A DNA stretch of 30,031 nt from a virus, in IMG/VR virus record IMGVR_UViG_3300021171_000038, positions 1 to 30,031 of that record; one strand, written 5' to 3'. The notes under the pieces are model-generated. The model did not search any database. It worked only from the letters and a program-made list of their open reading frames with translations, and was not told the origin of the DNA. Each line of letters opens with the position of its first letter. The first letter of the stretch is position 1. This document shows positions 105 through 19,667 of this stretch, piece by piece. Made by a program: the position numbers and the translations under genes.

Positions 105-128
105 CCACACATACCCATAGGGCGCCTC

Positions 129-2342: not shown

Positions 2343-2385
2343 GGGCCGATTGTTGCTACATTAGGACTGCGAAGTGGACGGGACG

Positions 2386-3421: not shown

Positions 3422-3434
3422 GGGAGGAAAAGCC

Positions 3435-4670: not shown

Positions 4671-4676
4671 ACGGTA

Positions 4677-4754
4677 ACGGGCTCCAGCAGCCAGAAGCTA
4701 GAGCCCGTCTGACGGTCCGCATGAGGCCGGGTGCGAAACAGCCTCGCGCCTCAT
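4677..4754 (+). other. two tandem hairpins between early cassette and helicase gene
   Basis: The first stem is ACGGGCTC (4677-4684) with GAGCCCGT (4701-4708), 8 bp with a 16-base loop. The second is ATGAGGC (4721-4727) with GCCTCAT (4748-4754), 7 bp; the inner GCCTC at 4741 offers an alternative partner for GAGGC, so two folds compete. No T-run follows either stem, which argues against a plain intrinsic terminator. The 4671-4840 stretch is otherwise non-coding. A regulatory RNA fold, processing site or Rho-dependent boundary is possible. Confidence 0.5.
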
Positions 4755-4840
4755 CTAACAGGGCAATTTGAAACTGTCCACATCACGGTTTGACAGCCCC
4801 GGCGAACAGGTCGACATCTCGACTCCCCGCGGGTGCGCCG

Positions 4841-7312: not shown

Positions 7313-7527
7313 TTTTTCTCACCAGCCCCGCCGACGCCTGCCACATCTATCGTGTCTGGCACTATCCCAAGCCACAAAAGTGTTTCACTGCGCTGGCCCG
7401 ACAACCGAAAAGGTTGGAAAGTCGGATCGAGATCCCATTGCCCGCGCTCGATTGGATCGATTGCCCGCTGGGGGATGAGCGACTGCGCGGGATTGCGCTT
7501 TTGCGGGATTTGAAGGAAGGTCGCTGA
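7237..7527 (+). CDS. small hypothetical protein overlapping the helicase end
   Basis: A 96-residue reading frame that begins 76 bases inside the helicase gene, behind GGGGGCGAG. A TTG at 7309, overlapping the helicase stop (TTGA), would give 73 residues and a smaller overlap. The common part reads LIFLTSPADACHIYRVWHYP, then PKPQKCFTAL. No family recognised. The downstream gene starts two bases after its stop, so the spacing supports a real gene; the start is uncertain. Confidence 0.55.
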   Translation: MAREQARSTSAWQALRPRRHWYVGLIFLTSPADACHIYRVWHYPKPQKCFTALARQPKRLESRIEIPLPALDWIDCPLGDERLRGIALLRDLKEGR

Positions 7528-7529
7528 CC

Positions 7530-7898
7530 ATGCATGAGTATGACGGACCTCCAATCAATTGGAAGGATCGGACCATGGCCATCAAACGCACCACCTCCAC
7601 CACAATCTCCCGCACCCCGCCGCCGTTGCCCGCTGACGAACCGCCCCAGCGGTTAGGCGGTCGATTGCCCAGCGGCGAAGACAATCGTTGGCCCGACGTC
7701 GGGGTCGAGGAGGTCGAGCCCGGGGCGCCCGCGCAAGGCGAAGTGATCCCGGTCGGCGTCGAGCAACTCCAGCGCTCGCAAGAGATGCAGGCGATGGGAG
7801 TCCATAACTGGGTCGCCGCGCATGACGAGCGCAACCCCGATTATCAACAGCAGGCGGTCGAAGGCGTCTCGCCGACGATGATCGATTATGGTCGATGA
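7530..7898 (+). CDS. Pro-rich hypothetical protein
   Basis: A 122-residue protein with a disordered Thr/Pro-rich N-terminus (TTSTTISRTPPPLPADEPPQ) and a more ordered C-terminal part (AMGVHNWVAAHDERNPDYQQ). GAAGG lies upstream of ATG 7530; a second ATG at 7575 has a better Shine-Dalgarno (GGAAGGAT) and would remove 15 residues. Its end overlaps the next gene by 11 bases. The style of sequence is like the Pro/Ala-rich virion proteins of the minus-strand late module. Confidence 0.65.
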   Translation: MHEYDGPPINWKDRTMAIKRTTSTTISRTPPPLPADEPPQRLGGRLPSGEDNRWPDVGVEEVEPGAPAQGEVIPVGVEQLQRSQEMQAMGVHNWVAAHDERNPDYQQQAVEGVSPTMIDYGR

Positions 7899-9051
7899 CG
7901 CTTGGCAGACTCGGATCCCGCAAGGTTGGATCCGCTATCCTGACGGGACTATAGGGCCGCCGAACCAAGTCGGCAGCGACTGGAACGCGCCCTACCGCCC
8001 AGCTCCTGGCGTCACCATCCCGCAATCGCCTGGGGCCCCGACGCCTGGCGGCGGCCTGACCCCGACCGGCGCTGGCTCCAGCGGCACGATGCTGCCAGGC
8101 AGCGGCGTCCTGCCCCGCTCGGCCAGCGCGGGCGCGCCAACGATGGGCTACCCGGCGATGGGCGGCTCCAGCCTCAACACCACCGGACCGCAGGTCTTCC
8201 CGCCCAACCAACGTCCGATCGCCCCGAACAAACAGGTCGGACGGTTCACCGGCGGCACTTCGACCGACAACACCTTTGAAGCTGGCAAGCCGATGGGCGC
8301 CGCAGCCGCGGGCGGCGCTTTCCCATCCTGGCTTAGCGGCGGCAACCTCAATCCCTGGGCGCGCGCCGCGATCACGGGCGCTGGCGTGATGGCGCCGACT
8401 CCGACCGCCAATGACGCGGCGCCGACCAACGCATGGTTCCAGCGTCCGAGCGGCGTCGGCGGCATGCCAGGGCCGCAGGTGACCAACCCGACGCCTGGAC
8501 CCGCGCCGCCCGGCGTCGGCGGTCCCTACGTCGGCGGCCAGGGCGCTCCACCGCGGCCCGTAGCGTCAGCGCCTCCTGGCGCGCCCAGCCCAGCGCCCGC
8601 GGCGGCTCCGGTTGCGCCCCCTCCCGGCGTCACTCCGCCGCCGATCAATGGGCGGGTCAACCCGGCCTCGGTCAACCTCGGCAACAATCCCTGGATCACG
8701 GCGAGTCGGCCCAACATGAGCCCGCAGAATAGCGCGCAAGGCCGCCAGGGCGCGCCGCAGATGGGCATGCTCGATCTCTCGCGGCTGTTTGGCGGCGGTC
8801 AGCCCGCGGCTCCAGCTGCAGCGCCAGCGCCAGCGATCGGCTCGCCAGCGCCCGCCGTGCCTCCGGTTCGCCCGCGGGGCGCCTTGGCTTCACCGACGCC
8901 GCCGTCAGGACCGATGGATCCGAGCATCATCGCTCATCAAAACGCCGCCGGGGCCGGACCGATGGACCCGAGCATCCTCGCTTGGTCGAGACGACTGCAG
9001 CCGGGCTACAACGGGCCTGACGCGCTCACGCCGATAGGACTAACCCAATGA
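7888..9051 (+). CDS. large Pro/Gly/Ala-rich low-complexity protein
   Basis: A 387-residue protein. A short ordered N-terminus with aromatic residues (AWQTRIPQGWIRYPDGTIGP) is followed by some 330 residues dominated by Pro, Gly, Ala and Asn with no catalytic motif. Near the end the motif GPMDPSI occurs twice, at bases 8908-8928 and 8956-8976, which are 20/21 identical. There is no signal peptide or transmembrane helix. Candidate roles are a virion-associated spacer or an injected disordered protein, by resemblance to the Pro-rich proteins of the late module; yet it is encoded on the early strand behind the replication gene. It shares ATGA with the Ig-like gene, suggesting co-expression with it. 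Confidence 0.75.
   Translation: MVDDAWQTRIPQGWIRYPDGTIGPPNQVGSDWNAPYRPAPGVTIPQSPGAPTPGGGLTPTGAGSSGTMLPGSGVLPRSASAGAPTMGYPAMGGSSLNTTGPQVFPPNQRPIAPNKQVGRFTGGTSTDNTFEAGKPMGAAAAGGAFPSWLSGGNLNPWARAAITGAGVMAPTPTANDAAPTNAWFQRPSGVGGMPGPQVTNPTPGPAPPGVGGPYVGGQGAPPRPVASAPPGAPSPAPAAAPVAPPPGVTPPPINGRVNPASVNLGNNPWITASRPNMSPQNSAQGRQGAPQMGMLDLSRLFGGGQPAAPAAAPAPAIGSPAPAVPPVRPRGALASPTPPSGPMDPSIIAHQNAAGAGPMDPSILAWSRRLQPGYNGPDALTPIGLTQ
8908..8976 (+). repeat. short direct repeat coding GPMDPSI
   Basis: GGACCGATGGATCCGAGCAT (8908) recurs at 8956 with a single change (GATCC to GACCC) 48 bases downstream, in the same frame. Both copies code for Gly-Pro-Met-Asp-Pro-Ser-Ile. The near identity at the DNA level suggests a recent internal duplication near the C-terminal end of the Pro-rich protein. 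Confidence 0.7.
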
Positions 9052-9587
9052 TGGATCCCGTCACTTTCGCCGGTAAGCTCAACCTCATCGTTGGCTCTTA
9101 TCCGTTCTATGGCTCCATCGGGGCTGAGCTGCAGGCGATTGTCACTGCGCTCAATCCGGACCCGACGACCTGCGACATGACGATCCAGAACGCGCCGAGA
9201 GGTCTTCGCCCAGGCGTCAATGGGCAAACGCCGTTCGTAAACGAGGTGCTCTTGCTGATCAACCGCGGCAAGGCGGGCAATCTCGCCAATACGGTGATGG
9301 CCGATTTGATCGACAATGAACTGAGCGCGATCTTGCCGCCGGTCAACACCACGGCGCCGTTCGCCACCGGCACGACGACGCTTAGCGTCACCACCGGGAT
9401 CTGGCAAAACAGCCCAACCTCCTACACCTACCAATGGCTGCGCGGCGGGGCGAACATCGCCGGGGCGACCGCAGCGACCTATGTGACGGTTGGCGCCGAT
9501 GCGGGAACGAATGTTTCTTGCCGGGTGACCGCGCATAATGGCGCAGGTTCGGCCCCGGCGACCTCCAACGCAATCGCGGTGGCGTGA
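9048..9587 (+). CDS. Ig-like domain phage protein
   Basis: A 179-residue protein. Residues 1-95 are an unrecognised domain (FAGKLNLIVGSYPFYGSIGA; LLINRGKAGNLANTVMADL). Residues 97-179 form an immunoglobulin-like beta-sandwich of the kind fused to phage virion proteins: YTYQWLRGGANIAGATAATY, then DAGTNVSCRVTAHNGAGSA. Such domains usually sit on capsid or tail surfaces and bind host-surface carbohydrates or mucus weakly. Here it is encoded on the early strand, next to the Pro-rich protein, so it may be a decoration protein or a secreted or surface adhesin. No signal peptide is visible. The start is the ATG that overlaps the preceding stop. Confidence 0.8.
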   Translation: MMDPVTFAGKLNLIVGSYPFYGSIGAELQAIVTALNPDPTTCDMTIQNAPRGLRPGVNGQTPFVNEVLLLINRGKAGNLANTVMADLIDNELSAILPPVNTTAPFATGTTTLSVTTGIWQNSPTSYTYQWLRGGANIAGATAATYVTVGADAGTNVSCRVTAHNGAGSAPATSNAIAVA

Positions 9588-9775
9588 TGCCCCAGATCCT
9601 CGACGAAGCGGTCAAGCAGCTGAAGAAGAAGGGTTGGGGCACGTCGAGCGCCTACGCGATTGGCACCTCCGCGCTTCAAAAGAGCGGCTCGCTCAAGCCT
9701 GGATCGAACAAGCCGACCGCCAAAGGCGTCAAACGCGGCAAGATGTCCCAGGCCGAGCGCCGGAGGACGATGTGA
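9587..9775 (+). CDS. small basic phage protein
   Basis: A 62-residue basic protein: MPQILDEAVKQLKKKGWGTS, then SAYAIGTSALQKSGSLKPGS and a Lys/Arg-rich tail (VKRGKMSQAERRRTM). The 'KKGWGTSSAYAIGTSALQKSG' style is common in small uncharacterised proteins of proteobacterial phages. It could bind nucleic acid given its charge. A GTG three bases upstream is an alternative start. Its TGA lies within the GTGA start of the next gene. Confidence 0.7.
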   Translation: MPQILDEAVKQLKKKGWGTSSAYAIGTSALQKSGSLKPGSNKPTAKGVKRGKMSQAERRRTM

Positions 9776-9990
9776 AAGCGGAATGGCTCGACAGCACCGA
9801 CATCCATACTTGCCTGTGCTGCGGGCAGACCATTCTTGCGCGGCCTGCGCCGATGACGCCGGAGCGCGCCGAGAAGGCGCTTGAGAAGTTCATCAAGCTT
9901 GGCTTGACGCGCGAGGATCTGCTCGGCAAGCACCGGGCGCAGATCGACTATCAGGCGCCGGGGTTCGCGGAATGGCTACAGGGGCAATGA
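9772..9990 (+). CDS. small Cys-motif hypothetical protein
   Basis: A 72-residue protein with GTG start overlapping the previous stop. It carries a cysteine cluster HTCLCCGQT at residues 12-20 (C14, C16, C17), possibly half of a metal site. The helical C-terminal half is ERAEKALEKFIKLGLTREDL. The longer reading frame in this phase (from 9538) would overlap the Ig-like and basic-protein genes and is rejected. Function unknown. Confidence 0.65.
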   Translation: MKAEWLDSTDIHTCLCCGQTILARPAPMTPERAEKALEKFIKLGLTREDLLGKHRAQIDYQAPGFAEWLQGQ

Positions 9991-10202
9991 CCTTCGGCGA
10001 GCGTGCGGTCGGGCTGACCTTCAATCCGAGCGGCGACGAGACGGTGCGCGAGTTGAAGCAAGCCGCGGCGGCCTTCATCGATCTCTGCCACACTTACGGC
10101 GGCTCGACCGATGATCCCGAGATCAAGCGCATGTTCGCGATCGCCATCACCGAGGCGCAGACGGCGCAGATGTGGGCGGTGAAGGGCGCGACGTGGCGTT
10201 AA
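9972..10202 (+). CDS. Acb2/Tad1-hairpin-like small protein (candidate anti-CBASS/anti-Thoeris sponge)
   Basis: A 76-residue protein. It has TFNPSGDETVRELKQAAAAF near the N-terminus and AITEAQTAQMWAVKGATW at the C-terminus, two helices joined by a short loop. From memory this 'NPSG...(I/V)...LK.AAA..ID...' plus 'A.T..Q.AQMWAVKA.T' layout is the Acb2/Tad1 hairpin family (formerly DUF7681). Its best-known member, Acb2, is a phage protein that binds cyclic di- and trinucleotides and thereby blocks CBASS and Thoeris signalling. The assignment is by pattern, without a search. Many family members are untested, so binding activity is an inference. It sits among small accessory genes between the replication cassette and the SSB-like cassette, a normal place for counter-defence genes. 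An ATG at 9987 is an alternative start. Confidence 0.6.
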   Translation: MATGAMTFGERAVGLTFNPSGDETVRELKQAAAAFIDLCHTYGGSTDDPEIKRMFAIAITEAQTAQMWAVKGATWR

Positions 10203-10408
10203 ACGCGCACGAAAAAGACGCGCTCAGATTTCAAATTGTGGAATTGGTCGAGGCCGACGAGCCGGAGGCGGTGGTCGCGACGCTGAAGCGCATTGCTGAA
10301 AAGATGGCGATGCGGGCGATCCGTCAGGACGATCGGGATGCGGCGCGGCGTTGGGACGCGCTCGCCGAACGGCTCAGCCGGGTGCTGGATCCGATCAGCC
10401 GAGTCTGA
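10193..10408 (+). CDS. small helical hypothetical protein
   Basis: A 71-residue, highly charged helical protein (HEKDALRFQIVELVEADEPE; KRIAEKMAMRAIRQDDRDAA). The GTG at 10193 has GAAGGG upstream and overlaps the end of the previous gene; an ATG at 10172 would add seven residues. Its stop overlaps the stop of the convergent minus-strand gene by 14 bases. No family recognised. Confidence 0.6.
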   Translation: MALNAHEKDALRFQIVELVEADEPEAVVATLKRIAEKMAMRAIRQDDRDAARRWDALAERLSRVLDPISRV

Positions 10409-10877
10409 ACATATCGTGCCGCGCCGGGACGCAATTGCACCACTCAAGCGCCTGGGCTTGCGCGCCAAGGTTGCCTTGAAAGTAGTTCTGCTGCGCCAGG
10501 CCTTGATGGTACTGCGCTTGCTGCATATTCATGTTCGCCTGCTGCGATTGCGCCATCGCCATCAGTTGCTGCGCCTGAAACTGTGCTTGCAGGCGCAAGC
10601 GCATTTCCTCGGTAATCTGGTGAACGCCAAAATCTGGACCCGCAGGCCGCTGCTGCTCCTCGCGCCGTTCGGCCAACGCCCGCCAGCGATCGGCTTCAAT
10701 CCTCGAAGTCGTAAGGTCGAGAATAGTCTGGTCGAGCTCCCGGTTGATATCCTCAAACTCGCGCTCGAGCTTATCGAGCTTCGCCTGGAGGCGGGTGATC
10801 TCGACGTCGACCGGCGGTTCGCGAAGCTTGGCGACGACGGCGGAAGTCATAAGCGCGAGGGTGGTTAGAACCGACAT
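10395..10877 (-). CDS. coiled-coil, Gln-rich protein on the opposite strand
   Basis: A 160-residue protein starting at the minus-strand ATG at 10877 behind GGGAG. Residues 1-18 are mildly hydrophobic (MSVLTTLALMTSAVVAKLRE), a possible short membrane anchor. Residues 27-75 are a coiled coil (ITRLQAKLDKLEREFEDINR; ELDQTILDLTTSRIEADRWR). The C-terminal third is Gln/Met/Asn-rich (MAQSQQANMNMQQAQYHQGL). An N-terminal anchor plus periplasmic coiled coil recalls an i-spanin, while the Gln-rich tail recalls the virion protein at 24487-25848. It is the only minus-strand gene in the first 19 kb and converges on the early genes. The overlapping plus-strand frame (10293-10868) is Leu/Arg-rich in the manner of a shadow ORF. 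Confidence 0.7.
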   Translation of the reverse strand: MSVLTTLALMTSAVVAKLREPPVDVEITRLQAKLDKLEREFEDINRELDQTILDLTTSRIEADRWRALAERREEQQRPAGPDFGVHQITEEMRLRLQAQFQAQQLMAMAQSQQANMNMQQAQYHQGLAQQNYFQGNLGAQAQALEWCNCVPARHDMFRLG

Positions 10878-10942
10878 GGGATCTCCCAGCTGCGGACACC
10901 GACGAAGGGACCACAAAACGACAATCTTGGCAAGCTTTCCAC

Positions 10943-10972
10943 TTGACAGTCCCACACAGTCCTAATAGCTCT
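10943..10972 (+). promoter_or_regulatory. candidate promoter for the SSB-like cassette
   Basis: A perfect TTGACA at 10943-10948 lies 67 bases upstream of the next start codon (11015) in a 137-base intergenic region. At 17 bases spacing the -10 would be TAGCTC (10966-10971). A better-looking TAATAG (10963-10968) lies at only 14 bases. The segment CAGTCCTAAT (10957-10966) is found again, inverted, at 2360-2369 before the HNH gene. TTGAC followed by AGTCC also occurs at positions 3-13. Confidence 0.5.
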
Positions 10973-10993
10973 GAGTGCAAGGCCCCTGTGTGG
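10952..10993 (+). promoter_or_regulatory. inverted repeat over promoter/5' UTR (operator or leader hairpin)
   Basis: CCACACAG (10952-10959) and CTGTGTGG (10986-10993) are perfect 8-bp inverted arms separated by 26 bases. They flank the presumed -10 element and start point. This placement fits an operator for a repressor, or a hairpin at the very 5' end of the transcript. No partner protein can be named; the window's XRE-type protein (15506-15820) is one possible regulator. Confidence 0.35.
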
Positions 10994-11014
10994 TCTTAAC
11001 CAGAGGATAAGCAG

Positions 11015-11503
11015 ATGCAATTCGATACCCAGACTGCGGCCACGTACGCTGGCCAGAAACTCGACTCGTTGCTGGAGCGCGCCACGCGTGACGCCAACAT
11101 CTCGATCGAGAACAAGAACATCCCCGACGCTGTCACCTACTTCGCCGAGCTGCGCGACACGGTCAAAAAGCTCGCGTTGCGAATGAGCGCGCTCCAGTCG
11201 CTTGTCGACACTATGTCGCAGGAGATGATCCCCGGCCTGTTCGAAAACCAGGGCGTCAAGACGATCAACGTCATCGACGTGGGCCGGGTCAGCATCAACG
11301 ACCGTTGGTCGGCCTCGATGCTCAACAAGCCCGCCGCTTTCGAATGGTTGAAGAAGACCGGCAACGAAGGGCTGATCATCGAAACCGTCAACGCCCAGAC
11401 GCTGGGGGCTTTCGCCAAGGACGAGGCGCTCGCCAAGCGCCCGTTGCCGAGCGAAATCTTCAAAGTCACGCCAACGCCTTACGTTTCGATCACGAAGGCG
11501 TGA
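11015..11503 (+). CDS. phage protein associated with DNA metabolism (unknown)
   Basis: A 162-residue protein with Shine-Dalgarno AGAGGA at 11002. The N-terminal half is a long helical region (YFAELRDTVKKLALRMSALQ, then SLVDTMSQEMIPGLF). A small beta domain follows (VKTINVIDVGRVSINDRWSA). The last third (FEWLKKTGNEGLIIETVNAQ; TLGAFAKDEALAKRPLPSEI) matches a layout I recognise in many phages: a helical hairpin, a one-strand 'V..vGrv...dr' segment, 'W+...G..liietVN..TL.a' and a final 'p...sit'. Those proteins are often encoded beside recombination or ssDNA-binding genes, as here. No enzymatic residues. The exact role is unknown; it starts the cassette under its own promoter. Confidence 0.75.
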   Translation: MQFDTQTAATYAGQKLDSLLERATRDANISIENKNIPDAVTYFAELRDTVKKLALRMSALQSLVDTMSQEMIPGLFENQGVKTINVIDVGRVSINDRWSASMLNKPAAFEWLKKTGNEGLIIETVNAQTLGAFAKDEALAKRPLPSEIFKVTPTPYVSITKA

Positions 11504-11504
11504 G

Positions 11505-12449
11505 ATGAATTTCGAAAAGCCCCGCTATCGCTGGAATGGCGAAAAAGGAAAGTACATCATTATGGCAAATGAAGTCGCGAGAACAGAAAGCGCAGAGGTT
11601 CCTCAATGGATGAGGGCCGCCTCGACCGGCGCGTCGATGGGCAACATCGACCAGAGCGATCTCAAGCCGCCGCGGCTTAAGATCCTAGCCGGGCAGTCGC
11701 CGGAGATCATGGACCGCACGCCAGGGGCCCAGGTCGGCAACTTCTGGATGACGATCCTGAACATGGATTTCGGCCCCTCGGTCAGCGGGACGCCGATCTT
11801 CCTGCGCAAGAGCTACCAGCTCTGGGCGCCGAAAGGCCTCCCTGGCGATGGCGGCCAGAAGGGGCCGCTGGCGACCGCCTCGGACGGCATCCATTGGGAT
11901 GTGCCGAACCAAGTTTTCGAGGTCCGGTTCCCCGGCAATCCGCGCGTCTACAAGTGGCACGTCAAGTCGACGGTGTTTGAGAACAAGATGCATAAGTTTG
12001 GGTCGAGCCAAGACGACAATCCGAACTCCAAACCCGCGGCCACGCTGACCTATGACGTGCTGTGGCTGATCGACCTGCCCAACGGCAAGAAGCAATTGTG
12101 CGTGTTCACCAACGCCAGGACGGGCATTGGGCCGACCCAGAACTTCATCTCCACTGCCCGAGCGATGGGGGTTGATCAGTATTTCCAACGCTACAAGATC
12201 GTCAGCCAGCGCAAGACCGGGCCAACCGGCGACCCCTACTACACCTACGAATATCAATATCTGGGCAATCTGCAGACGGAAGCGGAGGGGATCGAGGCGA
12301 AGGCCTTGTATGACCAGTACGCCAAGAGCGGCTTCGTCACCGACTTCGAGGCCGAGGCCGAGACGATCAACGCCGACAAGCCGCCTGCGGGCCGGTACGC
12401 GAACACCACCCAGGCGCCAGCGCACGACCAGGACGACATTCCATTTTAA
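11505..12449 (+). CDS. SSB-like single-stranded DNA-binding phage protein (predicted)
   Basis: A 314-residue protein; ATG 11562 would shorten it by 19. It belongs by appearance to a widespread phage family: SDLKPPRLKILAGQSPEIMD near the start, then AQVGNFWMTILNMDFGP, YQLWAPKGLPGDGG, ASDGIHWDVP, NSKPAATLTYDVLWLIDLPN and a 'TARAMG' segment. No oligonucleotide-fold motif can be proven by eye. The last residues, DQDDIPF, reproduce the acidic tip of bacterial SSB (E. coli ends DFDDDIPF). That tip recruits host repair and replication proteins such as RecO, RecQ, PriA and Exo I. A disordered linker precedes it (NADKPPAGRYANTTQAPAHD). Together these make a single-strand-binding role likely, though unproven. 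The neighbour at 11015 is probably co-transcribed. Strong hairpins follow the stop. Confidence 0.7.
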   Translation: MNFEKPRYRWNGEKGKYIIMANEVARTESAEVPQWMRAASTGASMGNIDQSDLKPPRLKILAGQSPEIMDRTPGAQVGNFWMTILNMDFGPSVSGTPIFLRKSYQLWAPKGLPGDGGQKGPLATASDGIHWDVPNQVFEVRFPGNPRVYKWHVKSTVFENKMHKFGSSQDDNPNSKPAATLTYDVLWLIDLPNGKKQLCVFTNARTGIGPTQNFISTARAMGVDQYFQRYKIVSQRKTGPTGDPYYTYEYQYLGNLQTEAEGIEAKALYDQYAKSGFVTDFEAEAETINADKPPAGRYANTTQAPAHDQDDIPF

Positions 12450-12452
12450 GAA

Positions 12453-12471
12453 CCCCCTGCGTCCCAGGGGG
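12453..12471 (+). terminator. GC hairpin after the SSB-like gene
   Basis: CCCCCTG (12453-12459) pairs with CAGGGGG (12465-12471), 7 bp with a five-base loop CGTCC, four bases after the TAA. The stem is very stable, but no T-tract follows (TAGAAG), so it may work as a 3' end protector or Rho-linked terminator rather than an intrinsic one. Confidence 0.5.
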
Positions 12472-12473
12472 TA

Positions 12474-12524
12474 GAAGAGGTCCACCCACATCAATCGCCC
12501 CCCGATTGCTGGGTGGGCCTCTTC
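12474..12524 (+). other. long composite hairpin before the second gene train
   Basis: GAAGAGG (12474-12480) pairs with CCTCTTC (12518-12524). The stem continues through a T-G wobble and CCACCCA (12482-12488) with TGGGTGG (12510-12516). An inner stem CAATCG (12492-12497) with CGATTG (12503-12508) is capped by a CCCCC loop. About 21 pairs form in total with one small internal loop. The spacing places it just upstream of the Shine-Dalgarno AAAGGGGGAA and ATG 12540. A terminator/attenuator, an RNase III processing site or a leader element are possible. Confidence 0.55.
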
Positions 12525-12539
12525 GCAAAGGGGGAACGC

Positions 12540-12746
12540 ATGCCACAGCTCAGTCCAGAGAACTACGTCAAGGTTACGGCGATCGTTAACCATGGGGTGA
12601 TCAAGCTCGCTCTGCTCGACGCCTACCCAGAGCTTTCGCGTAAAGGGCAGGAAGAGATGATGATCGAGATCCTCGGCCTGATGGCGCGCCGCTACGGCTG
12701 CGAGATCCGGCGGTTTATTGTCGAGGAGCACGACGATGGAGAATAA
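12540..12746 (+). CDS. small hypothetical protein
   Basis: A 68-residue protein behind a good Shine-Dalgarno (AAAGGGGGAACGC before ATG). Helical with an acidic tail: VNHGVIKLALLDAYPELSRK, then GQEEMMIEILGLMARRYGCE. It opens the second plus-strand train of genes. The following gene starts 11 bases before its end. No family recognised. Confidence 0.65.
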   Translation: MPQLSPENYVKVTAIVNHGVIKLALLDAYPELSRKGQEEMMIEILGLMARRYGCEIRRFIVEEHDDGE

Positions 12747-12903
12747 ATGCGAGGGGTTCACTCGCCCGCAATGCGAACCATGCCCGAACGAGGATACTCG
12801 CGTGGTGCGCGTCGCCACGGTTGAGGGTGATGAAGACAAACGCCTCTGCGCGGTTTGCATCGCGCATCTTTTGCCCCAGCTCGGGCAGGGCGGCTGGGTA
12901 TGA
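12736..12903 (+). CDS. small putative zinc-binding protein
   Basis: A 55-residue protein with two Cys-x-x-Cys pairs, C13/C16 (PQCEPCPNED) and C38/C41 (RLCAVCIAHL), plus C5. This suggests a single zinc-ribbon-like site. The rest is acidic. It is coupled to the next gene by ATGA. The target (DNA, RNA or protein) cannot be told. Confidence 0.6.
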   Translation: MENKCEGFTRPQCEPCPNEDTRVVRVATVEGDEDKRLCAVCIAHLLPQLGQGGWV

Positions 12904-13154
12904 AGTTCGTCAACATCGGCAAAAACAAGCAGCTGATCGAAGTGCCCGAGACGTGGAAGGAGGCCGAGGACATGGCCACCCAGGCGCTCGGGGCCTATTA
13001 CGACGAGCGCGGTCGCAACGTCCTGCGCCTGTCGATCGCCACCCGCATCGCCTACGGCATGTTTGGCAAGCAGACGATGGCGTCCGATCCGACCACGGCG
13101 CTGCTCTACCTGATGCAGCGGATCTGCATGCGCAAAGGGGCCGGGCTTGACTGA
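12900..13154 (+). CDS. small hypothetical protein
   Basis: An 84-residue protein: MKFVNIGKNKQLIEVPETWK, then helical EAEDMATQALGAYYDERGRN and RIAYGMFGKQTMASDPTTAL. Start shares ATGA with the preceding stop. No recognised domain. The 3' end overlaps the following TTG-started gene by eight bases. Confidence 0.65.
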   Translation: MKFVNIGKNKQLIEVPETWKEAEDMATQALGAYYDERGRNVLRLSIATRIAYGMFGKQTMASDPTTALLYLMQRICMRKGAGLD

Positions 13155-13536
13155 TCGGCGCACCAAGCTGGAGAAGATCCGCGCCCTGGCTGAGGATCCG
13201 CGCGCCAACCCGTATATGCGGGAGATGGCGCGCAAGCTCCTGCCGCCGGAGCCGCGACCGAACAAGCGCAATCCTGGACTCCAGCCCTCGTTCGACTACG
13301 AACGCTACACCTTCATGGACCTCAGCAACTGGAGCCGAACCGCCAATGGCAACCGCAGCCATGTCGTCACCCACAAAAACAAGGCTTACAGAATTGTTTT
13401 GTTTGAATACAAGAGCACCCAGGATTATGGCTGGCTGCGGATTGGCGTTGGCGATCCTCTGCGGGATTTTTCGGGCCGGTTCTACAGCCTCGGGGAGGCG
13501 CACAGAGACGCATGGACCCAATTGATGAAGCTCTAA
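13147..13536 (+). CDS. hypothetical phage protein (129 aa, TTG start)
   Basis: A 129-residue protein. The only start near the junction is TTG 13147, overlapping the previous stop. The N-terminal helix pair (TKLEKIRALAEDPRANPYMR, then EMARKLLPP) resembles the short 'KLEKIRALA' repeat seen at the start of DUF2786 and several phage proteins. The C-terminal part (AYRIVLFEYKSTQDYGWLRI; GRFYSLGEAHRDAW) looks like a small alpha/beta domain. Function unknown. Confidence 0.65.
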   Translation: MTDRRTKLEKIRALAEDPRANPYMREMARKLLPPEPRPNKRNPGLQPSFDYERYTFMDLSNWSRTANGNRSHVVTHKNKAYRIVLFEYKSTQDYGWLRIGVGDPLRDFSGRFYSLGEAHRDAWTQLMKL

Positions 13537-13721
13537 CCTACCCCTTCGCCGTCACTCTGTACGAGGTGTTGGAGATCGTTGTTGAGCACATCGACAAGGC
13601 CCAAAACACTTCCGACATGCTAAGGATCGGGGTTCACCTGAGGATGGCCAGCCGGGCCATGCGGTGCGCTCTGGAGATCTACGGCTCGCAATTAGAGGTG
13701 CTCAACAAGGAACCGAAATGA
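13512..13721 (+). CDS. small helical hypothetical protein
   Basis: A 69-residue helical protein (FAVTLYEVLEIVVEHIDKAQ; LRIGVHLRMASRAMRCALEI). It begins 25 bases before the end of the preceding gene and ends in an ATGA with the next. No motif recognised. Confidence 0.6.
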   Translation: MDPIDEALTYPFAVTLYEVLEIVVEHIDKAQNTSDMLRIGVHLRMASRAMRCALEIYGSQLEVLNKEPK

Positions 13722-14116
13722 ACACGTATGAAATCACCTTCAAATGCCCGAATAAGGAGAGCTTCATCGAAATGATCGAGAAGGTCGGGCCGGTCGCCGG
13801 CACGATGCAGGTCATCGTCAGCAAGATCGTCAGGGAGACGGGCGACGCCACCCCGTCGCTTAGGCCGCGCCGGGAGCATGGGCCACCCCAACCGAAACGG
13901 GTGCGCAGCTCGAAGGTCAACGACACCATCCTGGCGACATTGGGCGAGCAGGGCGAAGCCAGCGCCAAGGATCTGAAGGACGCCCTGGAGCGCGCTAACC
14001 TATCGCCGGGCTCGCTCTCGACCGGGCTCGCGGCGCTGCAGAAGAGCGGTCAGATCGAACGCGTTCGTGAGGGCGTTTACGGCATCGTCGGCAACCATCA
14101 GCAAGCGGCGGAATAA
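13718..14116 (+). CDS. winged-helix DNA-binding protein, copy 1 of a paralogous pair
   Basis: A 132-residue protein with an N-terminal alpha/beta part (YEITFKCPNKESFIEMIEKV), a basic linker (PRREHGPPQPKRVRSSK) and a C-terminal winged helix (residues ~68-125). The latter reads ILATLGEQGEASAKDLKDAL, LSPGSLSTGLAALQKSGQIE and RVREGVYGIV, with the typical 'AL...G...+V..G.Y' wing. The gene at 16147-16536 has the same layout and a clearly similar C-terminal domain, so they look like duplicated regulators. A function in controlling phage or host promoters is inferred. Confidence 0.75.
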   Translation: MNTYEITFKCPNKESFIEMIEKVGPVAGTMQVIVSKIVRETGDATPSLRPRREHGPPQPKRVRSSKVNDTILATLGEQGEASAKDLKDALERANLSPGSLSTGLAALQKSGQIERVREGVYGIVGNHQQAAE

Positions 14117-14293
14117 ATGACGGACCCGATCAAGCAATTCGCCAAGACGTTGGACGCGCACATTCGCGCTCATGTCGAAAAGCACGATCTGGTCCTCATC
14201 GAAAACGACCTCCTGGTTGCTCACGATCCGCACACAGGCCGCATCGTCATCACCTTCGAAGTGGTCAAGAAGATCCTGAAAGCGGCTGAGTGA
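14117..14293 (+). CDS. small hypothetical protein (58 aa)
   Basis: A 58-residue protein: MTDPIKQFAKTLDAHIRAHV, then EKHDLVLIENDLLVAHDPHT and VITFEVVKKILKAAE. It starts at the base after the previous TAA and its TGA overlaps the next ATG (TGATG). The fold looks alpha/beta. Function unknown. Confidence 0.6.
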   Translation: MTDPIKQFAKTLDAHIRAHVEKHDLVLIENDLLVAHDPHTGRIVITFEVVKKILKAAE

Positions 14294-14655
14294 TGGACGA
14301 AGCGACCCGAAAACGCGAACTCGTCAGGGAGATCAATGCTCTCCCCGGCGGGTACGCGCGGCGGTGGGAGGACCGCTGGGCGACCGGGCTGTTGGATCTG
14401 GTGATGAAGCTACCCGGTCATCCCATCCTCTGGGGCGAAGGGAAGATTGTCAGCGGCAACCTTTTCTTCCCCACCGAGCGCCAGTGGGTCGAAGGCAACC
14501 GGATCATCGCCGCGGGCATGCCAGCGGTTCTGATCGGCTGGAAGGCGCGCAACATGTACGTCAGTCCATGGGTCGAGCAGGCCGACATCCGCACCTGCTT
14601 CTACGGCAGCGGGCAATGGGTCGGCGTGCTGTTCGAATATCTGAAGGGAACCTGA
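14293..14655 (+). CDS. PD-(D/E)XK-like small nuclease (VRR-NUC-like, tentative)
   Basis: A 120-residue protein. It contains the spacing of a PD-(D/E)XK nuclease: TGLLDLVM (D35), a strand ILWGEGK (E49, K51), then TERQWVEGNRIIAAGMPAVL with Q64. The order 'G..D / E-x-K / Q....+....G.....I' is that of the VRR-NUC and related Holliday-junction or repair nucleases. These residues would bind Mg2+ and cut DNA. No zinc or other domain. GTG 14290 is an alternative start. The SNF2 helicase two kilobases downstream could be a functional partner, as VRR-NUC and SNF2 genes are often found together in phages. The family call is from motif reading alone. Confidence 0.6.
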   Translation: MDEATRKRELVREINALPGGYARRWEDRWATGLLDLVMKLPGHPILWGEGKIVSGNLFFPTERQWVEGNRIIAAGMPAVLIGWKARNMYVSPWVEQADIRTCFYGSGQWVGVLFEYLKGT

Positions 14656-14969
14656 TGAACCTCGATGACAGCCTTTTCGAAGACATGAGCGCGCTCGCTC
14701 AGGGGCTAAAATTCGCATTTCGGCGCGGGAAAAACTGGGAGACGTTGCCGCCAGAAAGCAAAGAGGCGCTGGAGCTGATCGCGTCGAGCCTCGCTCAGAT
14801 CCTGACCGGCAATCCGAGCGACGCCAGACGCTGGGTCGACATTGCTACGCTAGCCAATCTTCGCAGCAAGGCGCTGGAAGGTTCGCTGGAGAAGAGCGTT
14901 GCTCAGACGCGCGTCATCACTCCAAAGAACCTGTTTGATCCCGCCCCGCGCCCGCTCGGTGACGCATGA
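14655..14969 (+). CDS. hypothetical protein (104 aa)
   Basis: A 104-residue protein, helical in its central part (LFEDMSALAQGLKFAFRRGK; ESKEALELIASSLAQILTGN). It is linked by TGATG to the nuclease-like gene and by ATGA to the next gene. No recognised motif; the Pro-rich end FDPAPRPLGDA is probably disordered. Confidence 0.65.
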   Translation: MNLDDSLFEDMSALAQGLKFAFRRGKNWETLPPESKEALELIASSLAQILTGNPSDARRWVDIATLANLRSKALEGSLEKSVAQTRVITPKNLFDPAPRPLGDA

Positions 14970-15163
14970 AGCTCGTCGAGATCCTAGCGCGCTGTGAAAC
15001 CGCTTACGGAGAGATGGTGGCGATGCGCGCTCAACTCGAAAGCGACACCTCAGATGAAACCGCCTTTGCGCTCGGTCAGGCGCTCGGCGCGGTCTACCGA
15101 GCAAAAGGATTGGTCGAGCGCGACCTCAAGCTGCAGAAAGAGCAGGAGGAGGCCGATGCGTAA
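14966..15163 (+). CDS. small helical protein
   Basis: A 65-residue acidic helical protein (LVEILARCETAYGEMVAMRA; DLKLQKEQEEADA). It overlaps the next gene by eight bases. No family recognised. Confidence 0.6.
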   Translation: MKLVEILARCETAYGEMVAMRAQLESDTSDETAFALGQALGAVYRAKGLVERDLKLQKEQEEADA

Positions 15164-15506
15164 CCTGCGCGCCCTCGACGCCTTTCGCATCCCCGACACG
15201 CCCACCGAGCACGCTGACAGCGAAGGCGCCTTCCTGATCCCCTACCCGCTCGCCGGAGAACAGCTGCGCTGCCTCGCCAGCAACCACGCGGGTTGGGATC
15301 ACCTTTCGGTCAGCCTTCATGTCAGTAAGCGCACGCCAACCTGGGCTGAAATGGAGTACGCCAAGCGCACGTTCTTTCATCCCAACGAAGTGGCGATGCA
15401 GCTGCACGTCGCCGAGGACGAGCACATCTCGATCCACCCCTACGTGCTCCATTTGTGGAGGCCGCACGACGTTAAGATCCCGCTACCACCGAGGATGATG
15501 GTCTGA
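15156..15506 (+). CDS. DUF7694-like phage protein
   Basis: A 116-residue protein. It has the phage-typical string GWDHLSVSLH, then TPTWAEMEYAKRTFFHPNEV, AMQLHVAEDEHISIHPYVLH and LWRPHDVKIPLPP. I recognise this 'W+H.SVS.....TP.W.EM..+k..F......Q.H........HP..LHLWRP' layout as a domain found in many phages and prophages (DUF7694). Its biochemical role is unknown. It is coupled to the XRE-type gene by TGATG. Confidence 0.8.
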   Translation: MRNLRALDAFRIPDTPTEHADSEGAFLIPYPLAGEQLRCLASNHAGWDHLSVSLHVSKRTPTWAEMEYAKRTFFHPNEVAMQLHVAEDEHISIHPYVLHLWRPHDVKIPLPPRMMV

Positions 15507-15820
15507 TGGCTAAAGGCTTCACCTACAAAAGCTACTCGTTCGTCGACAAGGATCCGATCATCGACGAAATCCGCGGCGTCGTGCAGCTGAGCGGGTTCTC
15601 CTACAAGAAAATCGAAGAGGCCTCTGGCGTCACCTCGAAGACGCTGCACGACTGGTTCGACGGCGAGACGCGCAAGCCGCAGGCCGCTACGCTCAACGCA
15701 GTGGCGCGGGCGCTGGGCTACAAGCTCGGCTTCGTCCCTTACGAGGCGGCCTCTGTCGCTCAACCCACGCCGTCTATGGGCCACGTCGTTCGCATGGCGA
15801 AGATCCGGAGGGCGAAGTGA
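15506..15820 (+). CDS. XRE-family helix-turn-helix regulator
   Basis: A 104-residue protein with a Cro/C1-type DNA-binding domain at about residues 18-75: IIDEIRGVVQLSGFSYKKIE, then EASGVTSKTLHDWFDGETRK and PQAATLNAVARALGYKLGFV. In this fold 'SYKKIEEASGV' is the first helix pair and 'SKTLHDWF' the recognition helix. It probably binds phage or host operators as a dimer. No peptidase domain of the LexA or CI type is attached, so it is not a self-cleaving repressor. The inverted repeat at 10952-10993 is a candidate site. Confidence 0.8.
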   Translation: MAKGFTYKSYSFVDKDPIIDEIRGVVQLSGFSYKKIEEASGVTSKTLHDWFDGETRKPQAATLNAVARALGYKLGFVPYEAASVAQPTPSMGHVVRMAKIRRAK

Positions 15821-16044
15821 TCTGGAACATCATAACCATCATCTCGATGTGGGCCTGCGTCCTCAGCGCGCTCGCCTGCGCGATCGCGATCAACGGAGTC
15901 ATTCGCGTGACGCGGCGATCCAACGTCGAAATGAAACTGGCGCTGGGCGCTCTCAACGACGCCTACAGAGAAAGCTGGGAGATCGTCCACGCTGACCTCG
16001 ATCTCTTCAATCGCCGGATCACTGAACTGGAGAACCGCCTATGA
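15817..16044 (+). CDS. small membrane protein with cytoplasmic/periplasmic coiled tail
   Basis: A 75-residue protein starting at GTG (overlap GTGA). A single N-terminal transmembrane helix (IITIISMWACVLSALACAIA) is followed by a charged helical tail (YRESWEIVHADLDLFNRRIT). The layout is that of a small membrane-anchored phage protein, for example an i-spanin-like or superinfection protein. There is no neighbouring lipoprotein with a lipobox. Confidence 0.6.
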   Translation: MIWNIITIISMWACVLSALACAIAINGVIRVTRRSNVEMKLALGALNDAYRESWEIVHADLDLFNRRITELENRL

Positions 16045-16157
16045 ACTGGTTCCCCATCCTGCTTGGCCTCATCGCCTTCGTTTGCATGTGCCTGCCGTGC
16101 CCTCCGGTCCGGGATTGGCTCGACGGCATGGACAAGGAACCGGGCGATGACTGTTAA
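16041..16157 (+). CDS. mini membrane protein (38 aa)
   Basis: A 38-residue peptide: MNWFPILLGLIAFVCMCLPC, then PPVRDWLDGMDKEPGDDC. One hydrophobic helix with four cysteines in the whole peptide and an acidic tail. It starts in ATGA overlap with the previous stop and the next gene starts inside its end. Holin-like or modulating function cannot be judged at this size. Confidence 0.45.
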   Translation: MNWFPILLGLIAFVCMCLPCPPVRDWLDGMDKEPGDDC

Positions 16158-16536
16158 ATTCAAGATCGGGTTCACCATCGACGGCGAGACGCTGTTCGGC
16201 CTGATGTCGAAGTTCCTGCCGATCGACGATCTCAGCGTCGAGGAGATGGTCGAGCGTCAACCCCGGATCCCGATCGAGGCGATCGCGCACGCCGTCAAAC
16301 ACATCACCAAGCCCAAGCGAACCGCGAAGCGCGCCTCGCCAGGCCCCAATCTGGAGAAGGGCCTCAACGGGATCATCATGGCCGCCCTGTCTAGCGGGCC
16401 TCAAAGCGCGAAAGATCTGCTGCCCAAAGCTGTGGCCGCGGGCTTCTCACCTAACTCGGTCACTTCGCGGCTGGAGGAGCTGCGCAAGTTCGGGACGATC
16501 GAGCGCGTCGGCGATGGAACGTGGAGGAAAAAATGA
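16147..16536 (+). CDS. winged-helix DNA-binding protein, copy 2 of a paralogous pair
   Basis: A 129-residue protein sharing the layout of the gene at 13718. The N-terminal alpha/beta part is VKFKIGFTIDGETLFGLMSK, the basic linker KPKRTAKRASPGPN and the winged helix IIMAALSSGPQSAKDLLPKA, then SPNSVTSRLEELRKFGTIER and VGDGTWRKK. The S-A-K-D-L, S-P-x-S and IERV positions match the first copy. It immediately precedes, and overlaps by ATGA, the SNF2 helicase gene. A DNA-binding or adaptor role is inferred. Confidence 0.75.
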   Translation: MTVKFKIGFTIDGETLFGLMSKFLPIDDLSVEEMVERQPRIPIEAIAHAVKHITKPKRTAKRASPGPNLEKGLNGIIMAALSSGPQSAKDLLPKAVAAGFSPNSVTSRLEELRKFGTIERVGDGTWRKK

Positions 16537-17930
16537 GCACGCTTGACCCGGTCCAGATCGCGGGCCTCGATTTCGCCAGGGGCAAGCCCGGCGTCGGCTG
16601 GTTCATGGAGCAAGGGCTCGGCAAGACCCTGACCGCGCTGACTGAGTTCGAAGGCCTGACGATCGCCGAGGAGGCTGATCGGCTGATCGTGATCTGCCCC
16701 AACACGTTTAAGGAGGGCTGGGTCGACGAAATCGAGAAGCACGAATTCGACTTCGACGTCCATGTCTTCGAGTCGGCCAAGAAGAAACAGGCGGGGCAAT
16801 TTATCAACAGCTTGCATGAGCGCCCGCCGGTGTTCATCCTGAACTACGAAGCCATCCGCAGGCCCAACGTGCTGCAGGCGATGGTGCTATGGGCCAAGCG
16901 CGGCAAGGCCTATTTGGTGATCGACGAGAGCATCCAGATCAAGAGCAACAAGTCCGAGCAGACCAAATGCGTCCACCGGCTCGCTCCGATCTGCCGCTGG
17001 GTGCGCTGCCTGACTGGGCGCCCGCAGACGCAAGGACCACAGGATCTGTGGGGGCAATTGCGCGCGCTCGGCCTGTTCCAAGATCGGAACTTCTACGCCT
17101 TCCGCGGCCTGTTCTGCATCATGGGCGGATGGCAGATGCGCGAGGTGGTGCAGGCCAAGAACACCGATCTCCTGGCCTCGATGATGACCCCTGTGGTGTT
17201 CCAGGCGAAAAAGAAAGACTGGTTGCCATCGTTGCCGCGCAAGGACTTCACCATTCGCGACTATGCGATGTCGAACGAGCAGGCGCGCCAATACGCCTCA
17301 ATGGAGCATGAGTTCCTACTCGCCATCGAGGAAGGCTATGTCACAGTCGACGTGGCGATCGCGAAATATGAAAAGTTGGCCCAGATCCAAACTGGCTTCG
17401 TTTACGATGAACATGGTGACGCGCATCAGCTTGTGCTCCCCGATGAGAACCCGCGTCTCAACCTTCTGCGCCAGCTTCTGGAAGAGGAAACTGAGGGCAA
17501 GGTGTGTATCGTTTATCGCCACCGGCCAGTCCTCGATATGCTGGCCAACGCGCTGGGCGGCGGCGCTTGGATCAAAGGGGGGATGAAAGCGGACGAGGTC
17601 GAGGACCAAAAGCGGCGCTTCAACACCGACCCCTTCTGCCGCACCATCTTCCTGCAAGCGGAAGCCTCCAAATACGGCCACACCCTGCTCGGCGGCCCGG
17701 GACCGGATGATTTATGCCGGACGATGATCTTCTTTGAAAATAGTTACAGCGCCGACACCAGGGACCAGATAGAAGATCGGATCCACCGGCGCGGCCAGAC
17801 GGGCGAATATGTGTCGTACATCGACCTCTCGGGTTCGGATCTCGACCGGCGGATTGTCAAAGCCCTGCAACGAAAAGACGCGCTCTATCGTTCAGTGTTC
17901 AAGAACCTCAAGGTCGCGGAGCCAGCATGA
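16533..17930 (+). CDS. SNF2-family DEAD/H-box helicase
   Basis: A 465-residue protein. Motif I is WFMEQGLGKT (K31, T32); motif Ia region LIVICPN lies near 51-57. Motif II is LVIDES (131-133, DES in place of DEAH) and motif III CLTGRP (TGRP instead of the usual TGTP, near 159-164). Motif V/VI appears as DQIEDRIHRRGQTG near 411-424. The order and the R-I-H-R-x-G-Q box are diagnostic of SNF2-type translocases. These use ATP to move on double-stranded DNA; small phage versions are common and act in replication, recombination or anti-restriction. About 465 residues is a minimal size with no accessory domains. The start is the ATGA overlap with the upstream winged-helix gene. Confidence 0.9.
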   Translation: MSTLDPVQIAGLDFARGKPGVGWFMEQGLGKTLTALTEFEGLTIAEEADRLIVICPNTFKEGWVDEIEKHEFDFDVHVFESAKKKQAGQFINSLHERPPVFILNYEAIRRPNVLQAMVLWAKRGKAYLVIDESIQIKSNKSEQTKCVHRLAPICRWVRCLTGRPQTQGPQDLWGQLRALGLFQDRNFYAFRGLFCIMGGWQMREVVQAKNTDLLASMMTPVVFQAKKKDWLPSLPRKDFTIRDYAMSNEQARQYASMEHEFLLAIEEGYVTVDVAIAKYEKLAQIQTGFVYDEHGDAHQLVLPDENPRLNLLRQLLEEETEGKVCIVYRHRPVLDMLANALGGGAWIKGGMKADEVEDQKRRFNTDPFCRTIFLQAEASKYGHTLLGGPGPDDLCRTMIFFENSYSADTRDQIEDRIHRRGQTGEYVSYIDLSGSDLDRRIVKALQRKDALYRSVFKNLKVAEPA

Positions 17931-18184
17931 GCTATCGCGTCCCTAGCACGCGCTGCACCAACTGTGGCAAGGATATGGACGCCGCCGATCCGACCAGCGG
18001 TGGTCGAGGACCGAAACCCGGCGATGTCGCGATATGTTTCTACTGTCATCATCTTATGGTCTATGGCGACGAATTGATCTTGCGCGAACTCACTGATCAG
18101 GAGATCAAAGAGGTCGCCGGGGAACCAGAGATCATCCTGGCGATGAAAGCGCTCGGTGAATTTAAAGCAAAGGAGAAACGCTAA
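17927..18184 (+). CDS. zinc-ribbon phage protein
   Basis: An 85-residue protein. C10-x2-C13 (TRCTNCGKDM) and C37-x2-C40 (ICFYCHHLMV) form a canonical four-cysteine zinc ribbon with a Pro/Gly-rich spacer. A short acidic helical tail follows. It overlaps the helicase stop by ATGA and the next gene by TAATG. Probably a nucleic-acid- or protein-binding accessory factor of the helicase; the partner is inferred from order only. Confidence 0.75.
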   Translation: MSYRVPSTRCTNCGKDMDAADPTSGGRGPKPGDVAICFYCHHLMVYGDELILRELTDQEIKEVAGEPEIILAMKALGEFKAKEKR

Positions 18185-18861
18185 TGGCACAAGGTTCGTG
18201 GGCGTACATTCAGTTTTTCGACCAACCGGGCGGCGGGCACCCCGACCATGAGCTTCCTGGGCGCCCTGGACGCCCCGGTCAGCTCCCTGGCTTCCCTGGC
18301 GCGCCTGGGCATCCCGGTCATTTGCCATCTCGCCCCGGTCGTCCTGGCCGGCCCGTGGATCCCGATTGGGGCGTCGACGAGGGCGAGGGCGGCGGCGAGG
18401 ACGCCGGCCAGCTGCCAGTGTGGCCGCTCGATCCCGAGCATCCCGACGTCGGCCTGCCGCCGGTCGCCGGTCAACCGTTGCCGCCCGTCGACCCGCCCCC
18501 GGGCACCGTCTGGCCGCCGCTCGACCTCCCCGGCGTTCCCGAGGGCAAGGCTTTGGTTCTAGCTGCGGTGGTCAGCTCGACTGGCCACAAGAAAATGCAC
18601 TATTTCGTCGTCGACATTCCCGAGGGCGGACAGCCCGATCAGGGACTGCCGGGCGAGGGCGAGGAAGGCCCCGATCAGGAGCTGCCCAGCCCCCAGCCGC
18701 CGCGGCCGGGTCAGGGTCTGCCTGGTCAGCGTCCGCCGCAAGGCGGTCGGCCGCCGCAGCCCGGCCAGGGTCTGCCTGGGCAGCGGCCGGGCCAACGACC
18801 GCCAACCGCTGGACAATTGCCGACCCGGCCCGGCGCGCCCCAGCGCCCGCAGCCGAAGTAG
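18184..18861 (+). CDS. collagen-like Pro/Gly-rich phage protein
   Basis: A 225-residue protein made of Pro-Gly-rich strings: HPDHELPGRPGRPGQLPGFP near the start and PGQGLPGQRPPQGGRPPQPG near the end. One ordered island lies in the middle (residues ~120-145: GKALVLAAVVSSTGHKKMHY, then FVVDIPEG). It is strongly suggestive of the 'HPDHGLPG / HPDQGLPG' phage protein group seen near virion or lysis genes. There are no signal peptide and no transmembrane helix, so a virion or cytoplasmic location is more likely than secretion. Collagen-like phage segments often serve as stalks of trimeric tail structures, but the repeat here is irregular, so that remains a hypothesis. It is the last gene of the early strand. 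Confidence 0.75.
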   Translation: MAQGSWAYIQFFDQPGGGHPDHELPGRPGRPGQLPGFPGAPGHPGHLPSRPGRPGRPVDPDWGVDEGEGGGEDAGQLPVWPLDPEHPDVGLPPVAGQPLPPVDPPPGTVWPPLDLPGVPEGKALVLAAVVSSTGHKKMHYFVVDIPEGGQPDQGLPGEGEEGPDQELPSPQPPRPGQGLPGQRPPQGGRPPQPGQGLPGQRPGQRPPTAGQLPTRPGAPQRPQPK

Positions 18862-18866
18862 CAAAA

Positions 18867-18893
18867 AATATCCGTATCAATGATACGGATATT
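18867..18893 (-). terminator. 27-bp perfect palindrome; terminator for leftward transcription
   Basis: AATATCCGTATCA (18867-18879) and TGATACGGATATT (18881-18893) are perfect inverted arms around one A. On the minus strand the stem is followed by a run of six T (complement of 18863-18868), the shape of an intrinsic terminator for leftward transcripts; on the plus strand no T-run follows. A symmetric palindrome of this length could instead bind a dimeric protein. Confidence 0.6.
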
Positions 18894-18907
18894 AGAGATC
18901 CAAGGAG

Positions 18908-18926
18908 CGTCGGCATCCCGCCGACG
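18908..18926 (+). terminator. hairpin ending the early operon
   Basis: CGTCGGC (18908-18914) pairs with GCCGACG (18920-18926), 7 bp with an ATCCC loop, followed by TTTCCCTTT. This reads as an intrinsic terminator for plus-strand transcripts arriving from the gene ending at 18861. The Shine-Dalgarno of the next gene (AGGAGGGTG) begins about ten bases later, so the element may also act as an attenuator for that gene. Confidence 0.55.
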
Positions 18927-18946
18927 TTTCCCTTTAGGAGGGTGAC

Positions 18947-19591: not shown

Positions 19592-19622
19592 GCCTACACC
19601 CCCTGTGGCCGCGGCAATTCGG

Positions 19623-19651
19623 GGGAGGACGAGCACCGCTCTCGTCCTCCC
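19623..19651 (+). terminator. hairpin after the PEP-CTERM gene
   Basis: GGGAGGACGAG (19623-19633) pairs with CTCGTCCTCCC (19641-19651), 11 bp with a seven-base loop, followed by TATTTCCCG. It is a plausible terminator of the PEP-CTERM transcript. Reading leftwards it has no T-run, so late transcripts ending at 19668 may pass through it and stop at the palindrome near 18867. Confidence 0.6.
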
Positions 19652-19667
19652 TATTTCCCGTGAAACG

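Follow-up and report, generated by a model that had tools for sequence, protein, structure and literature searches.

A tandem hairpin behind an SSB-like phage gene, selected as RNA and gained or lost as a module: a possible U-less transcript-end element

Just behind the stop codon of an SSB-like gene in an uncultured phage lie two adjacent hairpins, HP1 and HP2, which, judging from the pattern of change in their stems, are an RNA structure under selection. By comparison with close relatives, they are also a module that has been gained or lost as a unit. We tentatively read this element, which closes the SSB-like cistron on its 3' side, as a cis-acting tandem hairpin that is U-less and leaky and serves transcript-end formation or attenuation. 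For this phage group it is a well-defined, portable RNA cassette backed by compensatory changes.

The window, by which we mean the whole stretch of DNA analysed, is a virus record of 30,031 bases. Its early arm runs on the + strand to about 19.6 kb and its late arm lies on the - strand, the same two-arm layout as in Ochrobactrum phage vB_OspP_OH (OH below). A megablast search against phage records gave no match. The features of the junction are collected in Table 1.

Table 1. Features of the junction between the SSB-like gene and the following ORF in the window
Feature	Position	Strand	Basis
SSB-like gene, 314 aa, acidic tail ending DDIPF	11505..12449	+	phrog_2402, PF23977 Pam3_Gp34, weak gp32/SSB fold matches
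HP1, 8-bp hairpin ACCCCCTG/CAGGGGGT, loop CGTCC	12452..12472	+	sequence and fold; 6-7 bp in other variants
Invariant GGTAG across the HP1-HP2 linker	12470..12474	+	alignment of carriers
HP2, 15 continuous outer pairs (one U.G) and inner 6-bp stem	12474..12524	+	fold, stem scan
Invariant loop motif CCCCCGATTG	12499..12508	+	alignment; in the window partly within the inner stem
HP2 end and invariant tail YCGCAA, module boundary	12523..12528	+	alignment of carriers
Shine-Dalgarno AAAGGGGG of the next ORF	12527..12534	+	sequence
Downstream ORF, 68 aa, function unassigned	12540..12746	+	sequence, PHROG/Pfam scans

A sequence-only reading had described two hairpins between the SSB-like gene and the next ORF, and every detail it gave was right. 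In the predicted fold, HP1 pairs CCCCCTG with CAGGGGG and adds one A-U pair. HP2 has an outer stem of 7 pairs, a U.G wobble and 7 further pairs, then a 3/1 internal loop, an inner 6-bp stem (CAATCG/CGATTG) and a CCCCC loop, giving 21 pairs in total in the window. The distances given earlier also hold: the stop codon TAA (12447-12449) ends 24 bases 5' of HP2, and the Shine-Dalgarno sequence follows HP2 directly, within GCAAAGGGGGAACGC, before the ATG at 12540. Folding, which that reading had proposed as a check, gave a minimum free energy of -53.6 kcal/mol; 200 dinucleotide shuffles averaged -36.55 +/- 3.53 kcal/mol (z = -4.8; 0 of 200 as low), about 17 kcal/mol higher. HP2 was the top-scoring stem of window positions 1-19900 (score 14.3; 5 stems above threshold), and the element's junction had the lowest z of the 21 window junctions (-5.5), the minimum of 20 control ORF ends being -2.9. 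Strong junction hairpins are not rare as such, since 10% of 372 control junction windows lay at z < -3. The proportion among the junctions targeted was 16 of 52, a count that includes identical or near-identical contigs. This overall enrichment is modest because z-scores from 100-nt windows underrate the short T-tailed hairpins of the distant clade described below.

A GC-rich stem-loop at a transcript-end position, as in a canonical intrinsic terminator, is present, but the U tract directly 3' of the stem is absent: none of the 8 bases after HP2 is a T, as had been noted from the sequence. The terminator scan of the window did not list the element. At the gathering threshold, Rfam gave no match in the window or in the stretches of six relatives, and a relaxed threshold applied to the element yielded chance-level scores only. 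Only 15 nt separate HP2 from the next ATG, and a promoter does not fit in that gap; the promoter scan of the window found nothing sigma-70-like near 12450. A PHROGs scan of 30 window ORFs recognised no phage RNA polymerase, and none was recognised in the OH annotation. A minus-strand open frame of 528 aa (11685-13271) crosses the element and is probably a composition effect of GC-rich coding DNA.

The name of the upstream gene needs some caution. The DDIPF tip is there, as the label 'SSB-like' supposes, and the protein falls in PHROG 2402, of unknown function, and in Pfam Pam3_Gp34. Its predicted model is of low confidence (mean pLDDT 62) and gave weak matches to gp32/SSB OB-folds only (RB69 gp32: Z 5.0, rmsd 4.5, 152 residues aligned); a Foldseek search with this model found no match at E <= 0.001. 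On a model of this quality, the label can be called only weakly supported. A search of genome contigs with the SSB alignment returned 73 stretches, none of which was confirmed, so that no prophage or host copy was found.

Relatives were collected by protein searches, blind to the hairpin. Ten records carry the element, namely the window and L001, L002, L003, L004, L005, L006, L007, L009 and L021, and four variants can be told apart among them (window/L001 type, L003, L005-L007, and L021). The covariation alignment consisted of six distinct rows covering these four variants. Standard pairs filled 99.2% of its 120 pair cells, and 7 of the 20 pairs had changed on both sides, which bears out the covariation sought in relatives. 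In 500 shuffles the percentage paired was never matched, nor were the two-sided counts and the covariation score; when the partners were shifted by 1-3 columns, pairing fell to 45-59%. One measure, that of 'further pair types', was not above shuffles in the six-row alignment (492 of 500 reached the observed value). Two pairs of HP1, which is 6-7 bp long in the other variants, had changed on both sides; in HP2, 14 outer pairs were formed in all six rows, five of them with two-sided change, and the unbroken outer stem measures 14-18 bp across variants. Among the four variants, the non-Watson-Crick pairs in those 14 positions were all G.U when read on the + strand, never A.C; they fill 6 cells and represent four distinct changes. 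Four changes are a small number, but this pattern points to selection acting on the sense RNA.

While the stems vary, GGTAG, CCCCCGATTG and CGCAA do not. The inner 6-bp stem is confined to the window/L001 and L003 types, so that the conserved feature is the loop motif and not the inner stem. None of the six rows has a U tract, the T counts in the 8-nt tail being 0, 0, 0, 0, 0 and 2. It is because pairing is kept with two-sided compensation, together with an invariant loop, linker and tail, that the alignments indicate a selected RNA structure.

Lack of either stem in related phages had been named as the result that would speak against the structure. Both stems are kept wherever the element exists; the element as a whole, however, is missing from 11 close contigs with related SSB or downstream proteins (L008=L019=L045, L020, L022=L047, L023, L046, L048-L053). 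Nine of these were scored: the spacer is 10-21 nt in seven and 59 nt in L050, no start was assigned in L046, and no stem at these nine junctions stands out (shuffle fraction 0.16 or more). The C-terminal 143 residues of the SSB of L021, a carrier, are 94% identical to those of element-free L047 and 72% identical to those of the window. In a tree of 16 SSB rows, of which the L021 row is only 46% filled, well-supported branches require the element to have been gained or lost twice. Since the Shine-Dalgarno leader found 3' of the element in L021 is like that of element-free relatives, the unit moved or lost is some 80 nt long, starting directly behind the stop and ending near CGCAA. Sequence comparison thus indicates a module gained or lost among close relatives.

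A search of 26 records with a covariance model of the element (R1) found one full copy per record in eight; six of these eight sequences had built the model, and their matches are by construction. The other matches were weaker antisense echoes at the same places and one weak sense match, in L098. L012-L014 and L035-L037, taken in by the motif pattern from outside the clade, were folded and none shows the twin-hairpin module; L026 and L027, taken in likewise, had no match in the R1 search.

More distant relatives, OH (a Wolominvirus) and L054-L086, are like the window in that the SSB-like gene is in most of them separated from the following gene by a hairpin, but the sequences differ and many have T-rich tails. 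The junction stems were surveyed in a reduced set of 42 rows from the protein-search loci, plus the window, L021 and L087, near-identical contigs having been removed by hand. In 22 of 27 distant rows (L054 onward) the stem reached a fraction of 0.05 or less against mononucleotide shuffles, one of them (L081) lying inside the next gene, and 10 of the 27 had four or more T among the 8 nt of the tail. In L068 and L072, where T-tailed hairpins are visible by eye, and probably in L066, the rule for finding starts put the stop or gap in the wrong place; it gave no start for L046 and L065. By eye, two successive hairpins could be seen in L055, L059, L069, L070, L072, L077, L080, L085 and L086. These hairpins are unrelated in sequence to the window element, and the CCCCCGATTG pattern was not found in OH or in L054-L086. 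The OH junction carries a GGGGGC-UACG-GCCCCC hairpin (shuffle fraction 0.08), and the DNA polymerase I gene of this phage lies two genes beyond; a reading of their frames suggests that a polymerase is next to the junction in many of the distant contigs. Inspection by eye showed hairpins at further early junctions of these contigs, in some cases with a TTGACA-like box behind them. The words terminator, promoter and hairpin do not occur in the main text of the OH paper (PMC7139368).

A related stem was met at the end of the early arm. The best R1 match beyond the SSB junction was L098 13361-13445 (E = 1.6e-4, 18.4 bits), whose stem (13383-13427), GGAGAGGCGGGAGG...CCTCCCGCCTCTTC followed by GC, is of the same GGAGAGGC...GCCTCTTCGC type as that of the element and stands 3' of the last early gene, facing minus-strand ORFs. 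The arm-end stems of L099, L100 and L103 resemble it in purine/pyrimidine composition, and 5' of them lies a conserved multibranch RNA that has two C5 loops. As transcript-end formation is the natural function at such a site, the SSB-junction stem is most simply read as a transcript-end hairpin too. The arm-end hairpins of this group have more T 3' of the stem than the SSB-junction element. By analogy, the latter may be a stem of the arm-end type whose U tract gave way to the purine-rich leader of the next gene, and which would be leaky for that reason.

The arm end has features of its own. A three-way-junction-like RNA of about 100 nt occurs there (L098 13290-13440, L100 18785-18945, and the minus strand of L099 and L103), in eight contigs altogether (L098, L099, L100, L103, L109, L110, L113 and L115). 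Its invariant segments are GTCTGAGGC, ACCCCCT, GCCARAGG and GGACCGTRTCAGGC, and a strong hairpin comes next; two-sided changes affect 5 of 26 predicted pairs in eight rows, three of which are near-identical. No Rfam match was found for it in L098, L099, L100 or L103, and we class it as a candidate for a new structured RNA. In L099 (reverse, 17771-17828) and in L113 (after 6700), the arm-end hairpin is followed by a long inverted repeat, TTTTCGTGAGACGACT.../...TCTCACGAAAA.

The transcript-end reading is the best fit because of the position of the element, the hairpins at the same junction in distant relatives and the similar arm-end stem. Once a polymerase, presumably that of the host, has passed the stop codon, HP1 would fold first and the highly stable HP2 next. 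Together they would halt or release some polymerases and shield the upstream message from 3'-5' exonucleases. The remaining polymerases would read on into the next genes, the Shine-Dalgarno of which lies just outside HP2, and the outcome would be a high ratio of SSB to downstream products. The earlier proposal of an attenuator or regulatory RNA is upheld insofar as covariation argues for a functional RNA element and its position suits an attenuator or transcript end best; a switch blocking the Shine-Dalgarno is not supported by predicted accessibility, as detailed below. Against the transcript-end reading stand the lack of a U tract in all six rows and the 11 close contigs that evidently manage without the element. 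The invariant 10-nt loop motif, which a plain terminator does not need, also counts against it.

In layout, adjacent hairpins shortly after a stop codon with no U trail, the element resembles known U-less tandem terminators, and its membership of that class hangs on termination itself. Single and clustered hairpins after stop codons are treated as intrinsic terminators in the relevant part of PMC8355165, two-hairpin units being the commonest; the same source cites higher termination from two tandem hairpins behind M. smegmatis gyrA. For U-less hairpins, a section of PMC5335608 gives partial termination in vivo and a contrary in vitro result (Czyz 2014), so that the matter is disputed. The U-less ('I-shaped') and tandem or cluster terminators of GC-rich bacteria, as those parts of the two papers present them, share with the element stable hairpins after the stop and no U trail; in contrast to them, its stems covary around an invariant loop and flanks, and it comes and goes among close relatives. 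A phage case appears in the reference list of PMC5335608: going by its title, Ingham 1995 deals with U-less terminators of the actinophage phiC31 early region. Phage early genes and the lack of poly-U tails would be the points in common, the phage itself being unrelated. If termination does occur at the element, it would offer a clean natural test of the disputed question of U-less termination.

Intercistronic RNA structure sets message levels in T4 gene 32 and T7 early mRNA, which undergo processing. As in the window, an SSB-like cistron stands there in a replication operon, a likeness by description and not by shown homology. Processing is in fact the main rival to a transcript end, although we consider it unlikely: the host RNase III would cut HP2 in a polycistronic early mRNA, as it does T7 early RNA, so that the SSB message would gain a protected 3' end and the message of the genes beyond would begin at a new 5' end. 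A long duplex with an internal loop, 21 pairs in all in the window, set between two genes and free of a U tract, would suit the enzyme. Sites of this kind are expected to span about two helical turns of duplex; the window has 15 + 6 pairs, and the variants have 14-18 outer pairs without a break. Against cleavage, no more than these 14-18 bp are unbroken, and conservation does not extend to the inner stem. Cleavage would not explain the invariant loop motif, and the hairpins that distant relatives have at the same spot are shorter and T-tailed. The motif is what specific recognition would account for, a rather improbable reading in which CCCCCGATTG and its GGTAG and CGCAA flanks would be recognised by a protein of phage or host, or by another RNA. 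The RNA might, for instance, act in cis on the elongating polymerase and modify it, in the manner of antitermination by HK022 put, or its C5 loop might pair with G-rich Shine-Dalgarno sites. HK022 put consists of two adjacent stem-loops, and the likeness of the element to it is one of general description. Recognition agrees with stems that covary around an invariant motif and flanks, with the finding that 3 of the 8 C5 runs on the + strand of window positions 1-19700 (at 12453, 12498 and 19599) lie in two junction hairpin elements, and with the two C5 loops of the arm-end RNA in relatives. The invariance, however, is that of four closely related variants and may partly be shared descent, there is no Rfam match, and L021 lacks the C5/G5 complementarity to the Shine-Dalgarno. 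If the loop is read specifically, it would be a new RNA control element. A broader proposal, which we hold to be doubtful, would unite the element and the arm-end RNA in a new phage RNA family (C5-loop domains, then TAG, then a purine/pyrimidine hairpin ending CGC), an 80-nt cassette moving between phages, through which early transcription would be controlled by a specific partner, be it elongating RNA polymerase, a protein of the phage or an RNA target.

Two further explanations fare worse. A translational switch on the next ORF, in which the GGGGG Shine-Dalgarno would pair with the C5 loop or with the C-rich HP1 arm, would draw on the presence of both C5 in the loop and G5 in the Shine-Dalgarno in 5 of 6 rows, and on fragments (L001, L003) that fold with a pairing that blocks the Shine-Dalgarno in place of HP1. 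Mean predicted accessibility of the site, however, is 0.47-0.67 in the six element rows compared to 0.45-0.57 in three element-free ones. Moreover, L021 has no G5, and the tail of 4-6 nt would be short for a pseudoknot over a stem of 14-18 bp. We rejected both sequestration and a C5/G5 pseudoknot on the predicted accessibility and L021, and the switch as a whole seems improbable. It is very improbable that the element is an inert palindromic mobile sequence of the REP/BIME type, with no function for the phage. Its presence or absence at the same site in close relatives, with L021 having a background otherwise like that of element-free L047, would be expected of such a repeat. Copy number largely refutes this, as each of the eight records holding the element among the 26 searched has one full copy and the sole sense-strand match elsewhere is weak; the stems, moreover, appear to be selected as RNA.

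Several other features of the early arm of the window were observed. A further pair of adjacent hairpins (4658-4754) lies just 5' of the primase-like ORF at 4790. The ORF at 9048-9587 matches Hoc-like head-decoration and tail families, a virion-type domain amid replication genes. Between the converging arms (19560-19660), a 12-bp stem encloses a C5-loop hairpin and is followed by GGGAGGACGAG/CTCGTCCTCCC and the tail TATTTC; this is probably a bidirectional arm terminator. A perfect 12-bp inverted repeat with a 3-nt spacer, AATATCCGTATC/GATACGGATATT (18867-18893), is intergenic and kept in L101, and could be an operator or a - strand terminator. The last early gene (18947-19591) encodes a C-terminal PEP-CTERM motif (PF07589, E = 1e-7), which is kept in relatives and is odd for a phage early protein.
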